Shown here piece by piece: positions 1-10,882 of a stretch of 64,000 bases of DNA. Position 1 is the stretch's first letter. Every line of letters begins with the position of its first letter. This stretch comes from Dulcicalothrix desertica PCC 7102 (GTDB lineage Bacteria; Cyanobacteriota; Cyanobacteriia; Cyanobacteriales; Nostocaceae). Below the pieces are notes generated by a model. It worked only from the letters and a program-made list of their open reading frames with translations, was not told where the DNA came from and did not search any database. Both the position numbers and the translations under genes were made by a program. The stretch lies in NCBI RefSeq assembly GCF_003991905.1, contig NZ_RSCL01000010.1, positions 1-64,000 on the forward strand, written 5' to 3'.

Positions 1-59
1 CACCCGCTCCCCCCACCCGCCTCACCCTCCCAACCATAACCTAAAATCCAAACATCATG

Positions 60-185
60 TGGCGGGTAGCTCAGAGGTAGAGCGCGTAATATCCTTGTTC
101 GACTTATTGCCCTCACGGGACGACTGAATGAGGGTTATCGATTTAGGTTCGCGAGGTCGCAAGTTCAAATCTTGCTCCGCCACCA
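60..185 (+). ncRNA. YrlA-type Y RNA with tRNA-like domain (copy 1)
   Basis: This is tRNA-like but not a normal tRNA. TGGCGGG (60-66) pairs with TCCGCCA (176-182) as an acceptor stem. A D-arm (GCTC 69-72, loop, GAGC 80-83) and a perfect T-arm (GCAAG 159-163, loop TTCAAAT, CTTGC 171-175) follow. A CCA is encoded at 183-185. The anticodon arm is replaced by about 75 nt holding the hairpin CCCTCA (110-115)/TGAGGG (129-134), and TCGA 99-102 can pair with TCGA 138-141. ACGGGACGA (115-123) and AGGGTTATCG (131-140) recur in copy 2. Bacterial Y RNAs of the YrlA class are known to carry a tRNA-like domain and to lie beside rsr genes. Position upstream of a Ro60 gene therefore makes this the best reading. 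Exact ends and the Ro-binding stem are inferred. Confidence 0.75.
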
Positions 186-195
186 TTATTCTCAC

Positions 196-317
196 TGGCA
201 GGTAGCTTAATAGTAAAGCGCCAATTTTACCCTTACGGGACGAAGATTTAGGGTTATCGCTTACTCACGAATCCCCCCTTAATCGCCGGAGACGCGAGTG
301 CAAAGCTCGTCCTGTCA
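196..317 (+). ncRNA. YrlA-type Y RNA with tRNA-like domain (copy 2)
   Basis: This second tRNA-like RNA lies 10 nt after copy 1. TGGCAGG (196-202) pairs with CCTGTCA (311-317), with one G-U pair. The D-arm is GCTT 205-208/AAGC 216-219, and the T-arm is GCGAG 294-298/CTCGT 306-310 with loop TGCAAAG. No CCA is encoded. The insert in place of the anticodon arm has ACCCT (229-233) pairing with AGGGT (250-254). It shares the blocks ACGGGACGA (235-243) and AGGGTTATCG (250-259) with copy 1 at nearly the same spacing, while the rest of the insert differs. Conserved blocks in a divergent insert point to a common protein-binding element. The Rsr start codon is only 38 nt downstream, so the RNAs and mRNA may share a transcript. 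Confidence 0.68.
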
Positions 318-355
318 ATTTTATATTTGCCCCAACGGGAGTCGCGGAGATAAAA

Positions 356-1966
356 ATGACATATAAATTTTTTCTAAATCAAAATAACAAAAATCAAAAT
401 ACTCGACAATCTCAACCAATTCCCGGACGCGAAACTGAGATGATTCAGGGACGTTCTGGTGGCTACATGTTCAAAGCTGATTTGTGGCAAGTATTACGTC
501 GTTGCTTGTTAATTGGTACATCACAAAATACTTATTATGCAGGTAAGCATGAATTAACCAATGCTTTTGTCGATACATTATTTAAAGCCATCGCCGAAAA
601 TCCAGAACGTGTAGCCTCAGAAATTATATATGCTTCTGACGGACGCTCAATTAATAACAGCGCACCAATTTTTGCTCTAGTACTATTATCAATGGGAGAA
701 ACAAACGGCGCCAAAAAAGCTTTCCAAGAAATTTTCCCCCAAGTTGTGCGTACTGGCAGCCATTTCTACGAATGGTTAAATTATACAAAATCAGTGCGTG
801 GATTTGGTAAAATTGTTCGTGAAGCAGGACAACGCTGGTTAGCGCGCGAGAACGTTAGAGACTTGGCATATCAATTGTTGAAATATCAACAAAGACAAGG
901 TTTCTCTCACCGTGACGCTTTACGTTTATTTCACGTCAAACCACCTACCGGAGACCATAACCAATTGTACCAATGGGTATTAAATGGATGGAAAGAACTA
1001 CCAGAAGCAATTCCATCTGGTGCGTTAACACAAATTTGGTGGTACGAGTGGTTAAAACGTAATCCGAGTGAAACCCATAAAGCAATTTCTGAAGGTCGCT
1101 TGACTCATGAAATGGCGGCGCCTGTCGGTAAAATGGATAAAACAGCATGGCAATTATTATTTAATGATATGCCCATCGGCGCCATGTTACGAAATCTTGG
1201 TTCCTTAACTGAATTAGGTGTATTGCGCGCAGACTCAAGAAAAAACCTTGACCATGCAGAATCTATATTAAACAGTCGTAACCATCTTCGCAAAGGACGT
1301 ATCCATCCAATAGACGTATTAAAAGCGCTAAAAACCTATAAATCTGGTGGAAGCTTAGGACGCAGCCAAAAAACTTGGCAACCTATTCCTCGTATTGTAG
1401 ATATTTTAGAGCGCGCATTAGAACTTTCTTTCGATACTGTCGAACCAACGAATAAAGTATTTATGCACGCAGTAGATATTTCTGGTTCGATGAGTTGCTA
1501 TACAGTCAGTTCAATTGGATTAACATGTTGTGAAATTGCGACAACAATGGCATTAGCAACTGCAAAAGCTGAAAAAAACTATGCCATCCGTGGTTTTTCA
1601 ACACAATTCGTTGACTTAAATATTACAGCCAAAGACTCCTTTAGTTCAGCAATGAAGAAAGCAAGTAATCAAAACTTTGGTGGTACCGATGCATCAGTTA
1701 CTTATGACTGGATGATTAAAAACAGATTTAAAGCTGACGTAATTTGTTTTTGGACAGACTGCGAAAGCTGGGCAGGACGTAAACATCCAAGTCAAGCACT
1801 TGCAGAATATCACCACAAAGTTAACCCGAAAGCCAAAGCTGTATACGTAACATTGGCGCCGAACAAAATCTCACTTGTTGATCCTCAATGTTCCATGTCT
1901 TGGGACTTAGCAGGTTTTGACCCTAGCGCACCACGCTTTATCCAAATGCTAGCAACAGATTTGTAA
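356..1966 (+). CDS. rsr: TROVE/vWA domain RNA-binding protein, Ro60 orthologue (Rsr)
   Basis: This 536-residue protein has the length and layout of Ro60/Rsr. A helical-repeat TROVE ring occupies roughly residues 25-350, followed by a von Willebrand A domain. The vWA metal site is visible as DISGS near residue 372, GGTD near 442 and WTDCE near 466. Ro60 proteins form a ring that binds misfolded RNAs in the pore and Y RNAs on the rim. In Deinococcus, Rsr with Y RNA tethers PNPase for structured-RNA decay. GGAG lies just before the ATG. Two YrlA-like RNAs sit upstream. The rtcB/rtcA genes that accompany rsr in enterobacteria are not in the window. The family call is firm; the partner nuclease here is unknown. 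Confidence 0.95.
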   Translation: MTYKFFLNQNNKNQNTRQSQPIPGRETEMIQGRSGGYMFKADLWQVLRRCLLIGTSQNTYYAGKHELTNAFVDTLFKAIAENPERVASEIIYASDGRSINNSAPIFALVLLSMGETNGAKKAFQEIFPQVVRTGSHFYEWLNYTKSVRGFGKIVREAGQRWLARENVRDLAYQLLKYQQRQGFSHRDALRLFHVKPPTGDHNQLYQWVLNGWKELPEAIPSGALTQIWWYEWLKRNPSETHKAISEGRLTHEMAAPVGKMDKTAWQLLFNDMPIGAMLRNLGSLTELGVLRADSRKNLDHAESILNSRNHLRKGRIHPIDVLKALKTYKSGGSLGRSQKTWQPIPRIVDILERALELSFDTVEPTNKVFMHAVDISGSMSCYTVSSIGLTCCEIATTMALATAKAEKNYAIRGFSTQFVDLNITAKDSFSSAMKKASNQNFGGTDASVTYDWMIKNRFKADVICFWTDCESWAGRKHPSQALAEYHHKVNPKAKAVYVTLAPNKISLVDPQCSMSWDLAGFDPSAPRFIQMLATDL

Positions 1967-4293: not shown

Positions 4294-4372
4294 TTTATCT
4301 GTTTACTTAGTATTCATAACATATATTTTATCATTGATAATATTATACTTGACTCATAACCCAAAGTTAGCA

Positions 4373-4453
4373 ATGAATAGTCATAATCTAAATTTGATGA
4401 CTGATAACGATATTGATATTTATAACATTAACGGGTCACACCTTTACTTTTAA
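4373..4453 (+). pseudogene. Truncated duplicate of the 3425-3916 gene start
   Basis: ATG AAT AGT CAT AAT... reads MNSHNLNLMTDNDID and then stops after 26 codons. It aligns with MNSENLEILTDADID at the start of the gene at 3425. The match ends near codon 16 and a repeat follows. It is a broken copy left by local duplication. Confidence 0.6.
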
Positions 4454-4818: not shown

Positions 4819-5826
4819 ATGCAAGTGACTATAAAAACGAAGCGAACAAGCCAATTTATTGATTGGTGGGCTTGGGGCGCCTTCACTAGTTTCATATTAA
4901 TTTTTGTAACGTTAATTCTGTCACCGATGTGGCAGCGAACGCTGTTAAATGAAACAGTAACGGTTGATGATGAGCCTGCAAAACTTAAGCCTATAGAATT
5001 AAAACCACATACACTCGGTGCCCTACGTGTTGATGCTGAAGCACGAATAAATGCGAATGAGTGGGTAGCGTTTGAAATTCAATTGCTTGATAAAGCTGGA
5101 AAAGTAATAGCGTCGGGTACTAAGGAAGGATGGAGTGAAACTGGGACTTGGTATGAAGAGGGAGAGTATGGAAGTTGGGCTGAACAAGATACTCTTGGTG
5201 GGCTAGATGTACGTGCGAAGCAAGATGAGACATTGACGGTTGCACTCGCACTGCTTGACTATGGAACTACGGAAGGAAAAGATTTAAATCAACCTGTATC
5301 GTTTCAAGTTACTGTCAGTGACGGGATAATAGATACTGGATATTTATGGTTAGGAATGATTCTTTCCTCTCCTTTCGCGTTGGCAACTATGTATGCTGCC
5401 CGTAAAAGTGGCAAGCGTGCGATTTTTGAGAAGATTCAGGATAGTGACCCTACTGGGCGTGGAATATTGGGAGGAGAAAAACGTTTGGTGCGTGTTCGCG
5501 TCGAAGTCGAAGCTGACGAAACGGCGCCTCGACAAGTAGAAGTTAGGCTAGTTATTAATGATGGCTATGGCGAACAAATATACTGCGAATCAACCGATGT
5601 TAACGTTGAGCGTAAAACAAAAGATGGGCAGTTTATAAAAGCTGTTGCTAAACTAGACAAATTCTTTGTAATACCTGAACGCAACTCTTACGGTTTTCAC
5701 GTAGAAGTTTATCCTGATGCACCTATAGACAGAACAAAACTAATAGTTCGCGATGGCGCCCGTACAATTCTACCTACTGATGTAATTTATTTGGAAAATC
5801 ACAAAGATTTAGCCGTTAATAATTAA
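4819..5826 (+). CDS. Membrane protein of the spermidine-synthase-like/DUF4178 cluster
   Basis: The 335-residue protein has one membrane segment near residues 18-36, a long outside domain of about 120 residues rich in beta-type sequence, and a second membrane segment near 172-192. A basic region and a C-terminal beta-rich domain then follow. The layout suggests two anchors holding an extracytoplasmic domain and a cytoplasmic tail. No named family was recognised with confidence. The stop lies 3 bases before the next gene, and a spermidine-synthase-like gene and a DUF4178 gene follow on the same strand, so it probably works with them at the membrane. Confidence 0.7.
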   Translation: MQVTIKTKRTSQFIDWWAWGAFTSFILIFVTLILSPMWQRTLLNETVTVDDEPAKLKPIELKPHTLGALRVDAEARINANEWVAFEIQLLDKAGKVIASGTKEGWSETGTWYEEGEYGSWAEQDTLGGLDVRAKQDETLTVALALLDYGTTEGKDLNQPVSFQVTVSDGIIDTGYLWLGMILSSPFALATMYAARKSGKRAIFEKIQDSDPTGRGILGGEKRLVRVRVEVEADETAPRQVEVRLVINDGYGEQIYCESTDVNVERKTKDGQFIKAVAKLDKFFVIPERNSYGFHVEVYPDAPIDRTKLIVRDGARTILPTDVIYLENHKDLAVNN

Positions 5827-6090: not shown

Positions 6091-7653
6091 ATGGGCGCCG
6101 AAACAGAAGAAAGTATCTTTATAAACAAAGTACAGCGAAGAACATTATTATTAGCAGCCGCAGTATCATCCGGCACAGGATTAGCGGTTGAATTATTACT
6201 GGGTAACCTAGCAAGCTATCTAATGGGCAACCAAGCACTCGCATATGGTATTGCCATAGGTGGATTCCTAGCAGCAATGGGTATCGGTTCATACTTGAGC
6301 AGATTTATCGCACCCAAAGAACAAGGACGCGCGTTACAGCGTGAAATGCTAACTGCATTTATAAAAATTGAACTACTCATAGCACCTTTAACTGCCTTAT
6401 TACCAATGGCATTATTCGCGCTGTTCGTTGCCGATAGTGCTGTAATTTGGCAAGCTTTATTTGTCGTTACTATCTTACTGGGAATTTTAGCAGGCTTAGA
6501 AGTGCCAATTCTCGCGCGCTTGCTTGAAATAGTTGACGGTGTACGCGATGCTATTTCTGGAGTACTGGCACTTGATTATTTGGGTGGTTTGTTGGGGTCG
6601 CTAGCATTTCCCCTACTTTTATTACCTTTTTTGAGCATGTTTCCCACTGCGTTTGTGTTAGGCGCCTTTCCTGCTTTAATGGTATTTGCTATTGGACAGT
6701 GTTTTCCATCAATGCGTCGTTGGGGATATGCAGGATTGATATTAGGTATAGTCTTACTTATATCGGCGCCAGCATCTATCCCACTAGGCAACAAGCTCGA
6801 AAATAATTTATATAATGCACCAATCATTAAGCGAGTTCAATCAACTTACCAACGTATTGTTTTAACACGTCAAGGTAAAGACCTGCGTTTATTTCTCGAC
6901 GGTGACTTACAATTTTCCACTGTCGATGAGTATCGCTATCATGAAGCATTAGTTCACCCAGCAATGAGCGCTGTCCCAAAGCGTAAAAAAGTACTCGTTC
7001 TAGGCGCCGGCGATGGAATGGCAGTGCGAGAAGTTTTAAAATGGCAGGGTGTAGAGCGTGTTGTTTTAATTGAACTTGACCCAACAATCGTCAAATTAGC
7101 TACTCGTTACCCGCAACTAGCTAAAGTAAACGCTAACTCACTTAAAGACCCACGAGTTCAAGTCATCAACGCCGATGCATTTGTACAGGCGCCTAAATTA
7201 CCCGATATATTCGATGTCATTATCGCCGATTTTCCTGACCCAGACCATGATAGTTTAGCTAAACTTTATTCAGATGGATTTTATCGGCGGTTAATGGGGC
7301 GCCTTGCAGAAAATGGTGTTCTTGTCACCCAAGCATCAAGCTCATTTTTCACACCCAAAGTCATAAGCTGCATAACTGCCACAATAGCCCATACAGGACT
7401 TATGGTACATCCCTATGTTGCTGATGTACCCTCGTTTGGCCCTTGGGGTTTTGTTCTCGCATCACGAAATAATATAGATACAACAAAACTGAAGCTTGAA
7501 ATTCCAACTAGATATCTCACCACCCCCTTATTACAACACATATTCGAGTTACCTAAAGATATTGAGTTTGGCAACACAGAAATCAATCGTCTTACTCATC
7601 CCGTCATTGTTCGTTACCAGTCGCAAGAATCAAGAATAAGAAATATACCGTAG
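6091..7653 (+). CDS. Membrane-fused spermidine synthase-like protein
   Basis: The N-terminal ~240 residues contain about seven hydrophobic membrane segments. The C-terminal part is a spermidine-synthase-type Rossmann domain, with VLVLGAGDGMAVREV near residue 302, VVLIELDPTIV near 325 and the acidic loop ADFPDPDHD near 378. The conserved Asp residues of aminopropyltransferases are kept, so catalysis is possible, but the substrate is unknown. Membrane-fused members commonly neighbour DUF4178 and DUF350 proteins, as here (DUF4178 follows). It belongs to an operon with the two genes upstream. A spermidine role should not be assumed. Confidence 0.85.
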   Translation: MGAETEESIFINKVQRRTLLLAAAVSSGTGLAVELLLGNLASYLMGNQALAYGIAIGGFLAAMGIGSYLSRFIAPKEQGRALQREMLTAFIKIELLIAPLTALLPMALFALFVADSAVIWQALFVVTILLGILAGLEVPILARLLEIVDGVRDAISGVLALDYLGGLLGSLAFPLLLLPFLSMFPTAFVLGAFPALMVFAIGQCFPSMRRWGYAGLILGIVLLISAPASIPLGNKLENNLYNAPIIKRVQSTYQRIVLTRQGKDLRLFLDGDLQFSTVDEYRYHEALVHPAMSAVPKRKKVLVLGAGDGMAVREVLKWQGVERVVLIELDPTIVKLATRYPQLAKVNANSLKDPRVQVINADAFVQAPKLPDIFDVIIADFPDPDHDSLAKLYSDGFYRRLMGRLAENGVLVTQASSSFFTPKVISCITATIAHTGLMVHPYVADVPSFGPWGFVLASRNNIDTTKLKLEIPTRYLTTPLLQHIFELPKDIEFGNTEINRLTHPVIVRYQSQESRIRNIP

Positions 7654-9577: not shown

Positions 9578-10882
9578 TTACATAGTCAATGATTGTGTAT
9601 TAGTTTCAATGCACGATGCCAAGTCTTTTAAGAAGGCAGCTGCATGGGCGCCGTATATAATACGGTGGTCACAGGTAATATTGACTTGCATTTGCTGTTT
9701 GACACCGAACATACCGTCAGGGGTTGCTACAACTTGAGGACGTGAGGCGCCGATTGCTAGTATCGAACCAGTTCCAGGTGGTAAGATAGCGTCGAATGTA
9801 TCAACACCGAACATTCCTAAATTAGAAATGGTAAAGGTACCTGTACTATACTCATCGGGTTGAAGTTGTTTCGCACGCGCACGTTCTACCAAAGACTTCC
9901 AGTTACGTGATAGCGAATATATATCTATTTGGTCGGCGTTTTGCAAGACTGGTGTAATTAACCCACCATCGTCCATTGCAACCGCAACAGCTATATTAAT
10001 GCCAGAGTGATGCACAATTCCTGAGTCAGAATAACTAGCATTTAATAAAGGATGTTTTTGTAGTGTTACCGCTACAGCTTTCGCTAGCAGCGCGCTCATT
10101 GTCACACCTTTAGATTTAAGCTGTTTGTAGAGTTTGTCGAGAGCGTCGGTGGTGATAGTGTAGCCTACACGGAAAACTGGAACTGCCAAGCTAGCAACCA
10201 TACTCCTATTAACAGCGTTTTGCAACGTGTTAAATGGTGTTGTTGTTCCTGGCACTACTGAAACAGGTGCTGGTGGTGTTGGAGTTGGTTTTGCAGCTGG
10301 TGCTGGTGTGTAAACTGGTGTTTCAACACGAGCTACAGGAGCAACCACAGGAGCTGTTGTTGGAGCTTTGCCTGCAAGAGCTTCTATATCGGCAGCAATA
10401 ATACGACCGAAAGGACCACTACCAGTAGTAATTTTATCTAACTCGACTTTTAGCTCTTTTGCTAATTTCTTAGCGCGTGGTGACGCTACAACCCTACCTT
10501 CGCGATGGTTTGAGCCGTTAGAGTTTGCTGTTGAGGTTTGTGCAGTTGCAGTTGCACTGGCGCCCGAAGTTACAGCAACTGGTTGTGCAACAGGTTGTGG
10601 GGTTGATGTTGCTTGTGCTGCCGCAGTGGCAATTTCCGCTTCGGTTTCAACAATAAAAGCAATCGCTTCCCCAACAGGCGCCGAATCACCAGCTTGAACT
10701 ATGATATGGGCAAGGTATCCTTCATAAAAGGATTCCACATCCATATCAGCTTTATCAGACTCGACAACCACCACAGTTTCGCCTTTTTCCACTTTGTCAC
10801 CGGGTGATTTTGCCCAGGAAACAATCTTGCCTTCGGTCATGGTGGAACTAAGTGCGGGCATGAATACTTCGTAAATGCTCAT
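9578..10882 (-). CDS. pdhC: Dihydrolipoamide acetyltransferase, E2 of pyruvate dehydrogenase
   Basis: This 434-residue E2 makes acetyl-CoA from acetyl-lipoamide in the pyruvate dehydrogenase complex. Domains in order are: one lipoyl domain (residues about 3-77, lipoyl Lys in ESDKADMDVES), an Ala/Pro/Thr-rich linker, a peripheral-subunit-binding domain (ASPRAKKLAKELKVELDKI, about 133-170), a second Pro-rich linker, and the catalytic acyltransferase domain (about 215-434). The active-site motif reads DHRIIYG, with Tyr where most bacterial E2s have Asp (HRxxDG). To my knowledge this is the plastid/cyanobacterial form. It is monocistronic, with a terminator downstream. Confidence 0.92.
   Translation of the reverse strand: MSIYEVFMPALSSTMTEGKIVSWAKSPGDKVEKGETVVVVESDKADMDVESFYEGYLAHIIVQAGDSAPVGEAIAFIVETEAEIATAAAQATSTPQPVAQPVAVTSGASATATAQTSTANSNGSNHREGRVVASPRAKKLAKELKVELDKITTGSGPFGRIIAADIEALAGKAPTTAPVVAPVARVETPVYTPAPAAKPTPTPPAPVSVVPGTTTPFNTLQNAVNRSMVASLAVPVFRVGYTITTDALDKLYKQLKSKGVTMSALLAKAVAVTLQKHPLLNASYSDSGIVHHSGINIAVAVAMDDGGLITPVLQNADQIDIYSLSRNWKSLVERARAKQLQPDEYSTGTFTISNLGMFGVDTFDAILPPGTGSILAIGASRPQVVATPDGMFGVKQQMQVNITCDHRIIYGAHAAAFLKDLASCIETNTQSLTM

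Follow-up and report, generated by a model that had tools for sequence, protein, structure and literature searches.

Tandem tRNA-shaped elements upstream of Ro60 in Dulcicalothrix desertica, probable genes for Y-type RNAs in unpermuted order

The Ro60 locus and its two upstream elements

The DNA examined here (the window, 64,000 nucleotides (nt) in length) begins at base 1 of contig NZ_RSCL01000010.1 of the cyanobacterium Dulcicalothrix desertica PCC 7102, where the observed upstream region also ends. Close to this end lies a gene for a Ro60/Rsr orthologue of 536 amino acids (356-1966, plus strand), which matches the Pfam families vWA_Ro60 (1e-36) and TROVE (1.2e-15) and has as its top sequence match in the PDB entry 2nvo, "Ro sixty-related protein, RSR" (E 1.2e-70), with 1yvp also matched. 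Ro60 ribonucleoproteins are conserved as far as humans, in which Ro60 is an autoantigen. Directly 5' of the gene and on the same strand are two tRNA-shaped elements, copy 1 (59-183) and copy 2 (196-317), much as a first-pass annotation of the sequence had described them: each has an acceptor stem, a D-arm and a T-arm but no anticodon arm, and the position of the latter, between D-arm and T-arm, is taken by a hairpin-containing insert of 75 nt in copy 1 and 74 nt in copy 2. The elements are real, conserved and structured; they are not tRNAs, nor, by the order of parts that defines that family, are they YrlA-type bacterial Y RNAs.

All features described for the window are on the plus strand. 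In copy 1 the arm readout gives an 8-bp acceptor (59-66/176-183), a D-arm with GG in the loop (69-83), the insert (84-158) and a T-arm with the loop TTCAAAT (159-175). The proposed Ro60 arm (91-140) consists of ATCCTTGTTC (91-100), a capped hairpin (109-120), CGA (121-123), the partner strand GAATGAGGGT (126-135) and TTATCG (135-140); its helix and hairpin covary in relatives, and it is here that Ro60 would bind. Copy 2 has a 7-bp acceptor (196-202/311-317), a D-arm whose loop, AATAGTA, lacks GG (205-219), the insert (220-293) and a T-arm with the loop TGCAAAG (294-310), the loss of GG being paired with a T-loop change to TGC. Its proposed Ro60 arm (230-284) contains a hairpin (230-239), CGAA (241-244), the strand GATTTAGGG (245-253), TTATCG (254-259) and the partner strand CCCTTAATC (276-284), of which RNAalifold predicted the hairpin only, the long helix being drawn from the pairing count for class B given below. 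Two details of the first-pass annotation have to be amended, as the acceptor stems stand 12 nt apart (183 to 196) rather than 10, and the shared motifs ACGGGACGA and AGGGTTATCG, which were said to keep the same spacing, are separated by 7 nt in the first copy and by 6 nt in the second. Folding of the single sequences is unremarkable (z of -1.74 and -1.19 for copies 1 and 2), so that the evidence for structured elements is comparative.

The inserts of copy 1 and copy 2 represent two classes. Class A inserts, such as that of copy 1, run ATCCTTGTTC, capped hairpin of GCC-GGC type, CGA, GAAT(T)GAGGGT and TTATCG, with a long helix formed by ATCCTTGTTC and the GAAT(T)GAGGGT strand in which 7 of 10 pairs show both-sided changes among the relatives. 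In class B (copy 2 and its relatives) the 5' strand of this helix is absent, and a GATTGAGGG strand pairs with a later CCCTTAATC instead. A rule-based selection of 15 class B rows was reduced to 13 elements by dropping a class A element (L001:60) and a likely false positive (L014:784); in these the helix has on average 8.46 of 9 positions paired, against 6.66 when shuffled, and one position reads T-A in six elements, C-G in six and T-G in one. RNAalifold, run on 12 class B rows, did not predict the long helix and chose a short alternative. A third group of inserts, again defined by rule, comprises 23 elements, mostly with an extra hairpin.

Linkage to Ro60 and covariation among relatives

We searched 82 cyanobacterial Ro60 loci (two from the D. 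desertica genome and 80 kept of 109 relatives found) with a descriptor that is blind to the insert and requires A9, both a D-arm and a T-arm, and a 7-bp acceptor paired at six or more positions; scores of at least 17 were counted. It identified 179 elements in 78 of the loci, up to approximately 3 kb upstream of Ro60, although one of those counted, L014:784, is probably false. Between one and six elements are present per locus (one in 13 loci, two in 37, three in 22, four in 5 and six in 1), and none of the 179 lies within or downstream of Ro60 on the Ro60 strand. In Calothrix PCC 7716, whose Ro60 is 94% identical to that of the window, the descriptor at this score finds just two elements next to the gene, and the second Ro60 gene of D. 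desertica itself (78% identical and confirmed with Pfam) carries another pair.

A covariance model, R1, was built from 34 class A elements, namely 33 of 38 distinct class A elements together with copy 1 (alignment A1; L003:2701, L014:937, L031:2441, L050:2460 and L077:1489 were left out). In the window R1 scores 113.5 bits at 59-186, where copy 1 is itself a row of the model, and 40.0 bits at 195-321; the next best match scores 11.7 bits. At an E value of 0.001 all 292 genomes of the phylum "match", since R1 also picks up sequences of tRNA length (about 76 nt, which we take as tRNAs) at up to 58.8 bits; we therefore used only matches above 60 bits. Among the 80 genomes of the order covered by both searches, such matches occur in 20 of the 22 with a Ro60 match and in none of the 58 without one, a scan in which at most 12 candidates per genome were scored under strict filters and in which absences are accordingly soft. 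The D. desertica genome additionally holds two orphan class A copies, L136:3177-3307 (110.4 bits) and L137:3168-3298 on the minus strand (101.5 bits), on contigs that have no Ro60 match. Among viral contigs nine stretches fitted a pattern and no Ro60 relative was confirmed. Weaker R1 matches are found directly downstream of Ro60 in a number of loci, among them L007:4696-4809, L006:4597-4728 and L010:4609-4760 (about 40-49 bits in these three), and arrays of elements may thus flank Ro60 on both sides.

The covariation among relatives on which the first-pass annotation had made its proposal depend is strong. Alignment A3, fitted to R1, is made up of the best 150 among 189 R1 matches from 52 chosen loci. 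Of the cells in its 145 distinct rows 94.9% are paired, compared with 77.3% after shuffling and 42-51% after sliding, and both-sided changes occur in 29 of 33 pairs, including every one of the eight in the acceptor. In the unfitted alignment A1 both-sided changes are seen in 15 of the 20 pairs predicted by RNAalifold. The elbow loops also change together: GG in the D-loop accompanies TTC in the T-loop in 116 of 116 distinct elements, and a D-loop lacking GG, as in copy 2, goes with TGC in 14 of 17 (Fisher 2e-16, ancestry ignored). An eighth acceptor pair is possible in 160 of the 179 copies. A test of the acceptor that used motifs only, free of pairing, was spoiled by false T-loop matches inside inserts, for example GGTTCGAG; it gave 234 sites, of which 50 lacked a T-arm and 23 a D-arm match, and among the 161 left (96 distinct) 64 distinct sites pair at 7 of 7 positions, 3 at 6 and 29 at 4 or fewer (mean 5.78, shuffled 4.44).

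Resemblance of the arms to those of tRNA raises the question of whether the elements are degenerate or intron-containing tRNA genes. The Rfam tRNA model (cut-off 29 bits) does give copy 2 35.7 bits (196-318), by skipping 65 nt of the insert, and the other pair 32 bits (G000:C41:345-464); since the cut-off is exceeded, a tRNA scanner could misname copy 2. However, ARAGORN, bearing on the intron-containing tRNA that the first-pass annotation had named as its refutation, finds no tRNA gene, and there is no anticodon stem beyond a 2-bp stub. The inserts, moreover, hold many of the most conserved bases as well as covarying helices, and the elements are linked to Ro60. It is extremely unlikely that they are tRNA genes in either form.

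RNA ends, processing and the Ro60 leader

An N-CCA encoded in register after the acceptor stem is present in 64 of 116 copies that lie more than 80 nt from the Ro60 start codon and in 0 of 63 that lie nearer, a count that allows acceptors of 7 or 8 bp. By comparison, CCA is encoded by 3 of 53 distinct tRNA genes of the D. desertica genome (from 30 of 60 tRNA matches, one with an unresolved end). Neither window copy encodes CCA in register: the trinucleotide at 182-184, previously taken as the CCA end of copy 1, overlaps the 8-bp acceptor stem and is out of register, and CATT comes after the stem. In the Ro60 leaders a hairpin resembling that of the Ro60 arm occurs shortly 5' of the start codon, usually abutting a GGAG-like site. 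By eye we recognised it in 71 of 72 distinct leaders, the exception being L071; a script found some stem of at least 4 pairs, not always the hairpin in question, in 69 of 72. Some leaders have CCC-GGG only, including that of the window, where the hairpin CCC-CAAC-GGG (330-339, 3 bp) precedes the Shine-Dalgarno-like GGAG (346-349) of Ro60; L074 and L077 are without an evident GGAG.

These features would also suit a function chiefly in cis, with the elements serving as the leader of Ro60 mRNA and the protein binding the nearest copy and the Shine-Dalgarno hairpin and so repressing its own translation. The absence of an in-register CCA from copies near the start codon and the near-universal leader hairpin speak for such a role. 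The nearer copies are related by descent, however, and the CCA contrast thus represents few events, while the two orphan copies, on contigs without a Ro60 gene, suggest action in trans. We regard a mainly cis-acting role as unlikely; that Ro60 represses its own translation via the leader hairpin is a guess.

The reading that we prefer, that of separate small RNAs, would involve the following steps. The elements are most likely transcribed along with Ro60, and the enzymes that form tRNA ends would cut them out of the transcript. Ro60 would bind the insert near CGA(A) and TTATCG, and the tRNA-shaped body would be exposed to tRNA-reading enzymes or to some effector, PNPase for example. We infer the last two steps by analogy with YrlA, whose basal stem is described as holding Rsr and whose tRNA-like domain as binding PNPase and being modified by tRNA enzymes (PMC8394870). 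With an open acceptor the RNAs could be processed, CCA-tailed and even charged like tRNAs, which the capped YrlA could not. Several diverged copies per genome could provide Ro60 with several partners, and the difference in Ro60-arm topology between copy 1 (class A) and copy 2 (class B) fits some division of labour. As to expression of the protein, one report describes a strong rise of a TROVE-domain transcript after erythromycin in Chlorogloeopsis (PMC6424891), and another a TROVE transcript that rises together with RtcB in a coculture (PMC11423583). RtcB matches in the D. desertica genome are on contigs C13 and C17, away from the window.

Relation to YrlA and other Y RNAs

The likeness of YrlA to tRNA is described in PMC11472068 as a circular permutation. 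The YrlA consensus (Rfam RF02553) runs Ro60 strand, T-arm, short capped acceptor, D-arm, Ro60 strand, and the window elements run acceptor, D-arm, insert, T-arm, acceptor. The first-pass annotation had viewed them as YrlA with a closed acceptor; the Ro60-linked, tRNA-mimicking Y-type RNA with a closed acceptor stands, and the assignment to YrlA does not, as the order of YrlA is permuted. At the Rfam gathering score nothing was found in the window. Below it, the YrlA model matches neither copy on its own, and its best match spans both (155-219, 22.4 bits; cut-off 69). Across 292 genomes of the phylum it gives a weak match in 41 and a match above the cut-off in none. By coordinates, 6 among 48 listed matches straddle two R1 copies (one each in G111, G021, G029 and G220 and two in G240). 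The model fits best across neighbours because the cyanobacterial copies keep the normal tRNA order. For one of the six, a full-length Infernal alignment at L132 (32.1 bits), which spans two neighbouring copies, starts at AAGGCCGAAGAAUUGAGGG of the first and takes GGC-CGAAGAAUUGAGGG and the T-arm from this copy and the D-arm and AUCCUUAUUCACCCCUCGCC from the next. The informative part is the register of the Ro60 strands, which comes from this one alignment. YrlA matches in L113 and L114 proved to be true tRNAs lying side by side and were discarded.

It could be argued from these matches that what functions is a permuted RNA of the usual YrlA kind, derived from a transcript across the two copies, in which the T-arm of copy 1, a hybrid acceptor and the D-arm of copy 2 are combined and both inserts form the Ro60 stem. 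The hybrid acceptor does pair at 6 of 7 positions in the window, and 12 of 61 distinct cases of neighbouring copies show complete crosswise pairing (7 of 7). Cognate acceptors nevertheless pair better (mean 6.93 compared with 5.52, in copies preselected for at least 6 pairs), and copy 2, being class B, is without the strand that the hybrid needs. The descriptor, moreover, finds a single upstream copy at 13 of the 78 loci (cut contigs may hide others), two loci (L060 and L080) are single-copy by R1 too, and the two orphans are single copies. A strict descriptor for a capped acceptor, applied to the 82 loci, retrieved one cross-copy case (L077) and one implausible match (L064); as the permuted units of L112 and L138 described below escaped it too, its silence is weak evidence. 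On balance a permuted RNA spanning the copies is very unlikely.

In another class of the phylum, for which 18 genomes were covered, the Ro60 gene is distant. L112 and L115 contain Ro60-like genes (Pfam TROVE) with a permuted unit directly downstream, scoring 47.6 and 42.7 bits against the cut-off of 69; the Ro60-like gene of L112 (L112:2-1261), beside its permuted YrlA-like unit, spans two reading frames. L138 (G324:C179:6000-17000) encodes a Ro60 (Pfam) that is 38% identical to that of the window over 379 residues, followed downstream by 29 ARAGORN tRNA calls, one of which overlaps another on the opposite strand. Within this tRNA cluster are a YrlA match with a capped acceptor (6420-6521, 38.4 bits) and unpermuted R1 matches of Y length at 4295-4420 (70.7 bits) and 5128-5256 (47.3 bits), along with one weak partial match. 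Judged from its sequence, this deeper relative has permuted and unpermuted forms at one Ro60 gene. The assembly is flagged as 7% contaminated; the same Ro60 (64% identity, Pfam) is found in two other genomes of the class (loci L143 and L144), one of which is likewise flagged at 7%. These two yielded no YrlA match and no R1 element of Y type, R1 picking out nothing beyond a true tRNA and a match of 19.3 bits. They possess sbRNA-like RNAs directly upstream of Ro60 with UUAUC following GGG, an arrangement that we count in favour of Y-type RNAs in the window. Two of these (L143:9531-9596 and 9671-9736, minus strand) score 37.4 and 31.3 bits with the nematode sbRNA family (RF01656, cut-off 38), and the one in L144 was identified by eye. 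The near-cut-off matches suggest a Ro60-stem core that may be common to bacteria and animals. The 19.3-bit R1 match in L143 (9454-9505, minus strand) is a tiny element with an acceptor-like stem and a T-arm and almost no insert, situated between the two sbRNA-like RNAs and Ro60.

Taken together, we consider it probable that copies 1 and 2 are genes for Y-type partner RNAs of Ro60 with an unpermuted tRNA body, in which a Ro60-binding arm replaces the anticodon arm, and that they are co-transcribed with Ro60, processed by tRNA enzymes and present the tRNA body to enzymes or an effector. As far as sequence can tell, they would work like Y RNAs.

Several observations weigh against this interpretation. 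CGA could form an alternative pseudoknot with the UCG of UUAUCG; these bases hardly vary. Copy 2, without the 5' helix strand, does not fit a strict permutation. The cross-copy YrlA scores (22.4 and 32.1 bits) are below the cut-off, and YrlA score is not specific, because tandem true tRNAs score higher (44-45 bits); a second weak YrlA match in the window (1-116, 14.5 bits) uses the D-arm of copy 1 alone. The pairing figures for A3 lean towards R1, to which the alignment was fitted, and A3 includes some true tRNAs (those of L118 and L060:4914-4989); its rows share ancestry, so that counts are not independent events. Four loci (L029, L058, L076 and L078) gave no descriptor match; with R1 an element is seen in L058 at 60.2 bits and a weak match in L029 at 24.2 bits. 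Two Ro60-positive genomes, G094 with a Ro60 fragment and G246 with a distant Ro60, have no R1 match above 60 bits.

We know of no visible source for the permuted tRNA mimicry of YrlA. With an unpermuted form that is widespread, mostly occurs in tandem and in one genome stands next to the permuted one, the way in which a natural RNA permutation arose becomes open to testing, and the two-copy layout hints at a route by which such re-wiring could arise. In a tandem class A array the stretch between the Ro60 arms of successive copies would already be in full YrlA order, and loss of the outer halves would fix that order. An extended scenario would derive YrlA and the cyanobacterial RNAs, as circular permutants, from a single Ro60 RNA of tRNA origin, with interconversion via tandem arrays and L138 as a surviving intermediate, and would also have Ro60 control its own translation through a mimic hairpin at the ribosome site. 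This is offered only tentatively, as we think it somewhat more apt to fail than to hold. The surprising parts are the topology and the mixed L138 locus. No prior description of the unpermuted form was found among the titles and abstract openings listed, a survey that did not extend to the main bacterial Y RNA papers; priority is therefore uncertain and part of it may be known already.

Comparison with established families places the elements as follows. With tRNA (RF00005) they share the chain order, the acceptor, the D- and T-arms, the elbow loops and U8-A9, but a Ro60 arm of 74-75 nt replaces the anticodon arm and there is no anticodon. Partial tRNA mimicry is also seen in tmRNA and viral tRNA-like structures; to our knowledge the window elements have no tag frame of the tmRNA kind, and neither tmRNA nor the viral structures are linked to Ro60. 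UUAUC, which is described as the loop motif of both sbRNAs and Y RNAs (PMC4450293), follows the GGG end of the upper stem here as in nematode sbRNA and metazoan Y RNA (RF01656). The latter, however, have no tRNA body and have their termini at the foot of the Ro60 stem, whereas the 5' and 3' ends of the window elements pair as an acceptor. YrlA (structure PDB 6CU1) is similar in its position beside Ro60/Rsr, in its D-arm, T-arm and acceptor-like helix, and in having the Ro60 stem at the position of the anticodon arm. The GGC-CGA strand of many relatives, which Infernal aligns with YrlA across the two copies at L132, may be a further common feature; in copies 1 and 2 the sequence is GGGA-CGA. 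YrlA differs in that the acceptor is open here and the Ro60 stem capped in class A. Read round the circle, the parts of class A and YrlA appear in the same order, with the chain cut at the acceptor in class A and at the Ro60 stem tip in YrlA, and the class A RNAs are most readily understood as YrlA in circularly permuted form, the acceptor open and the Ro60 stem capped.

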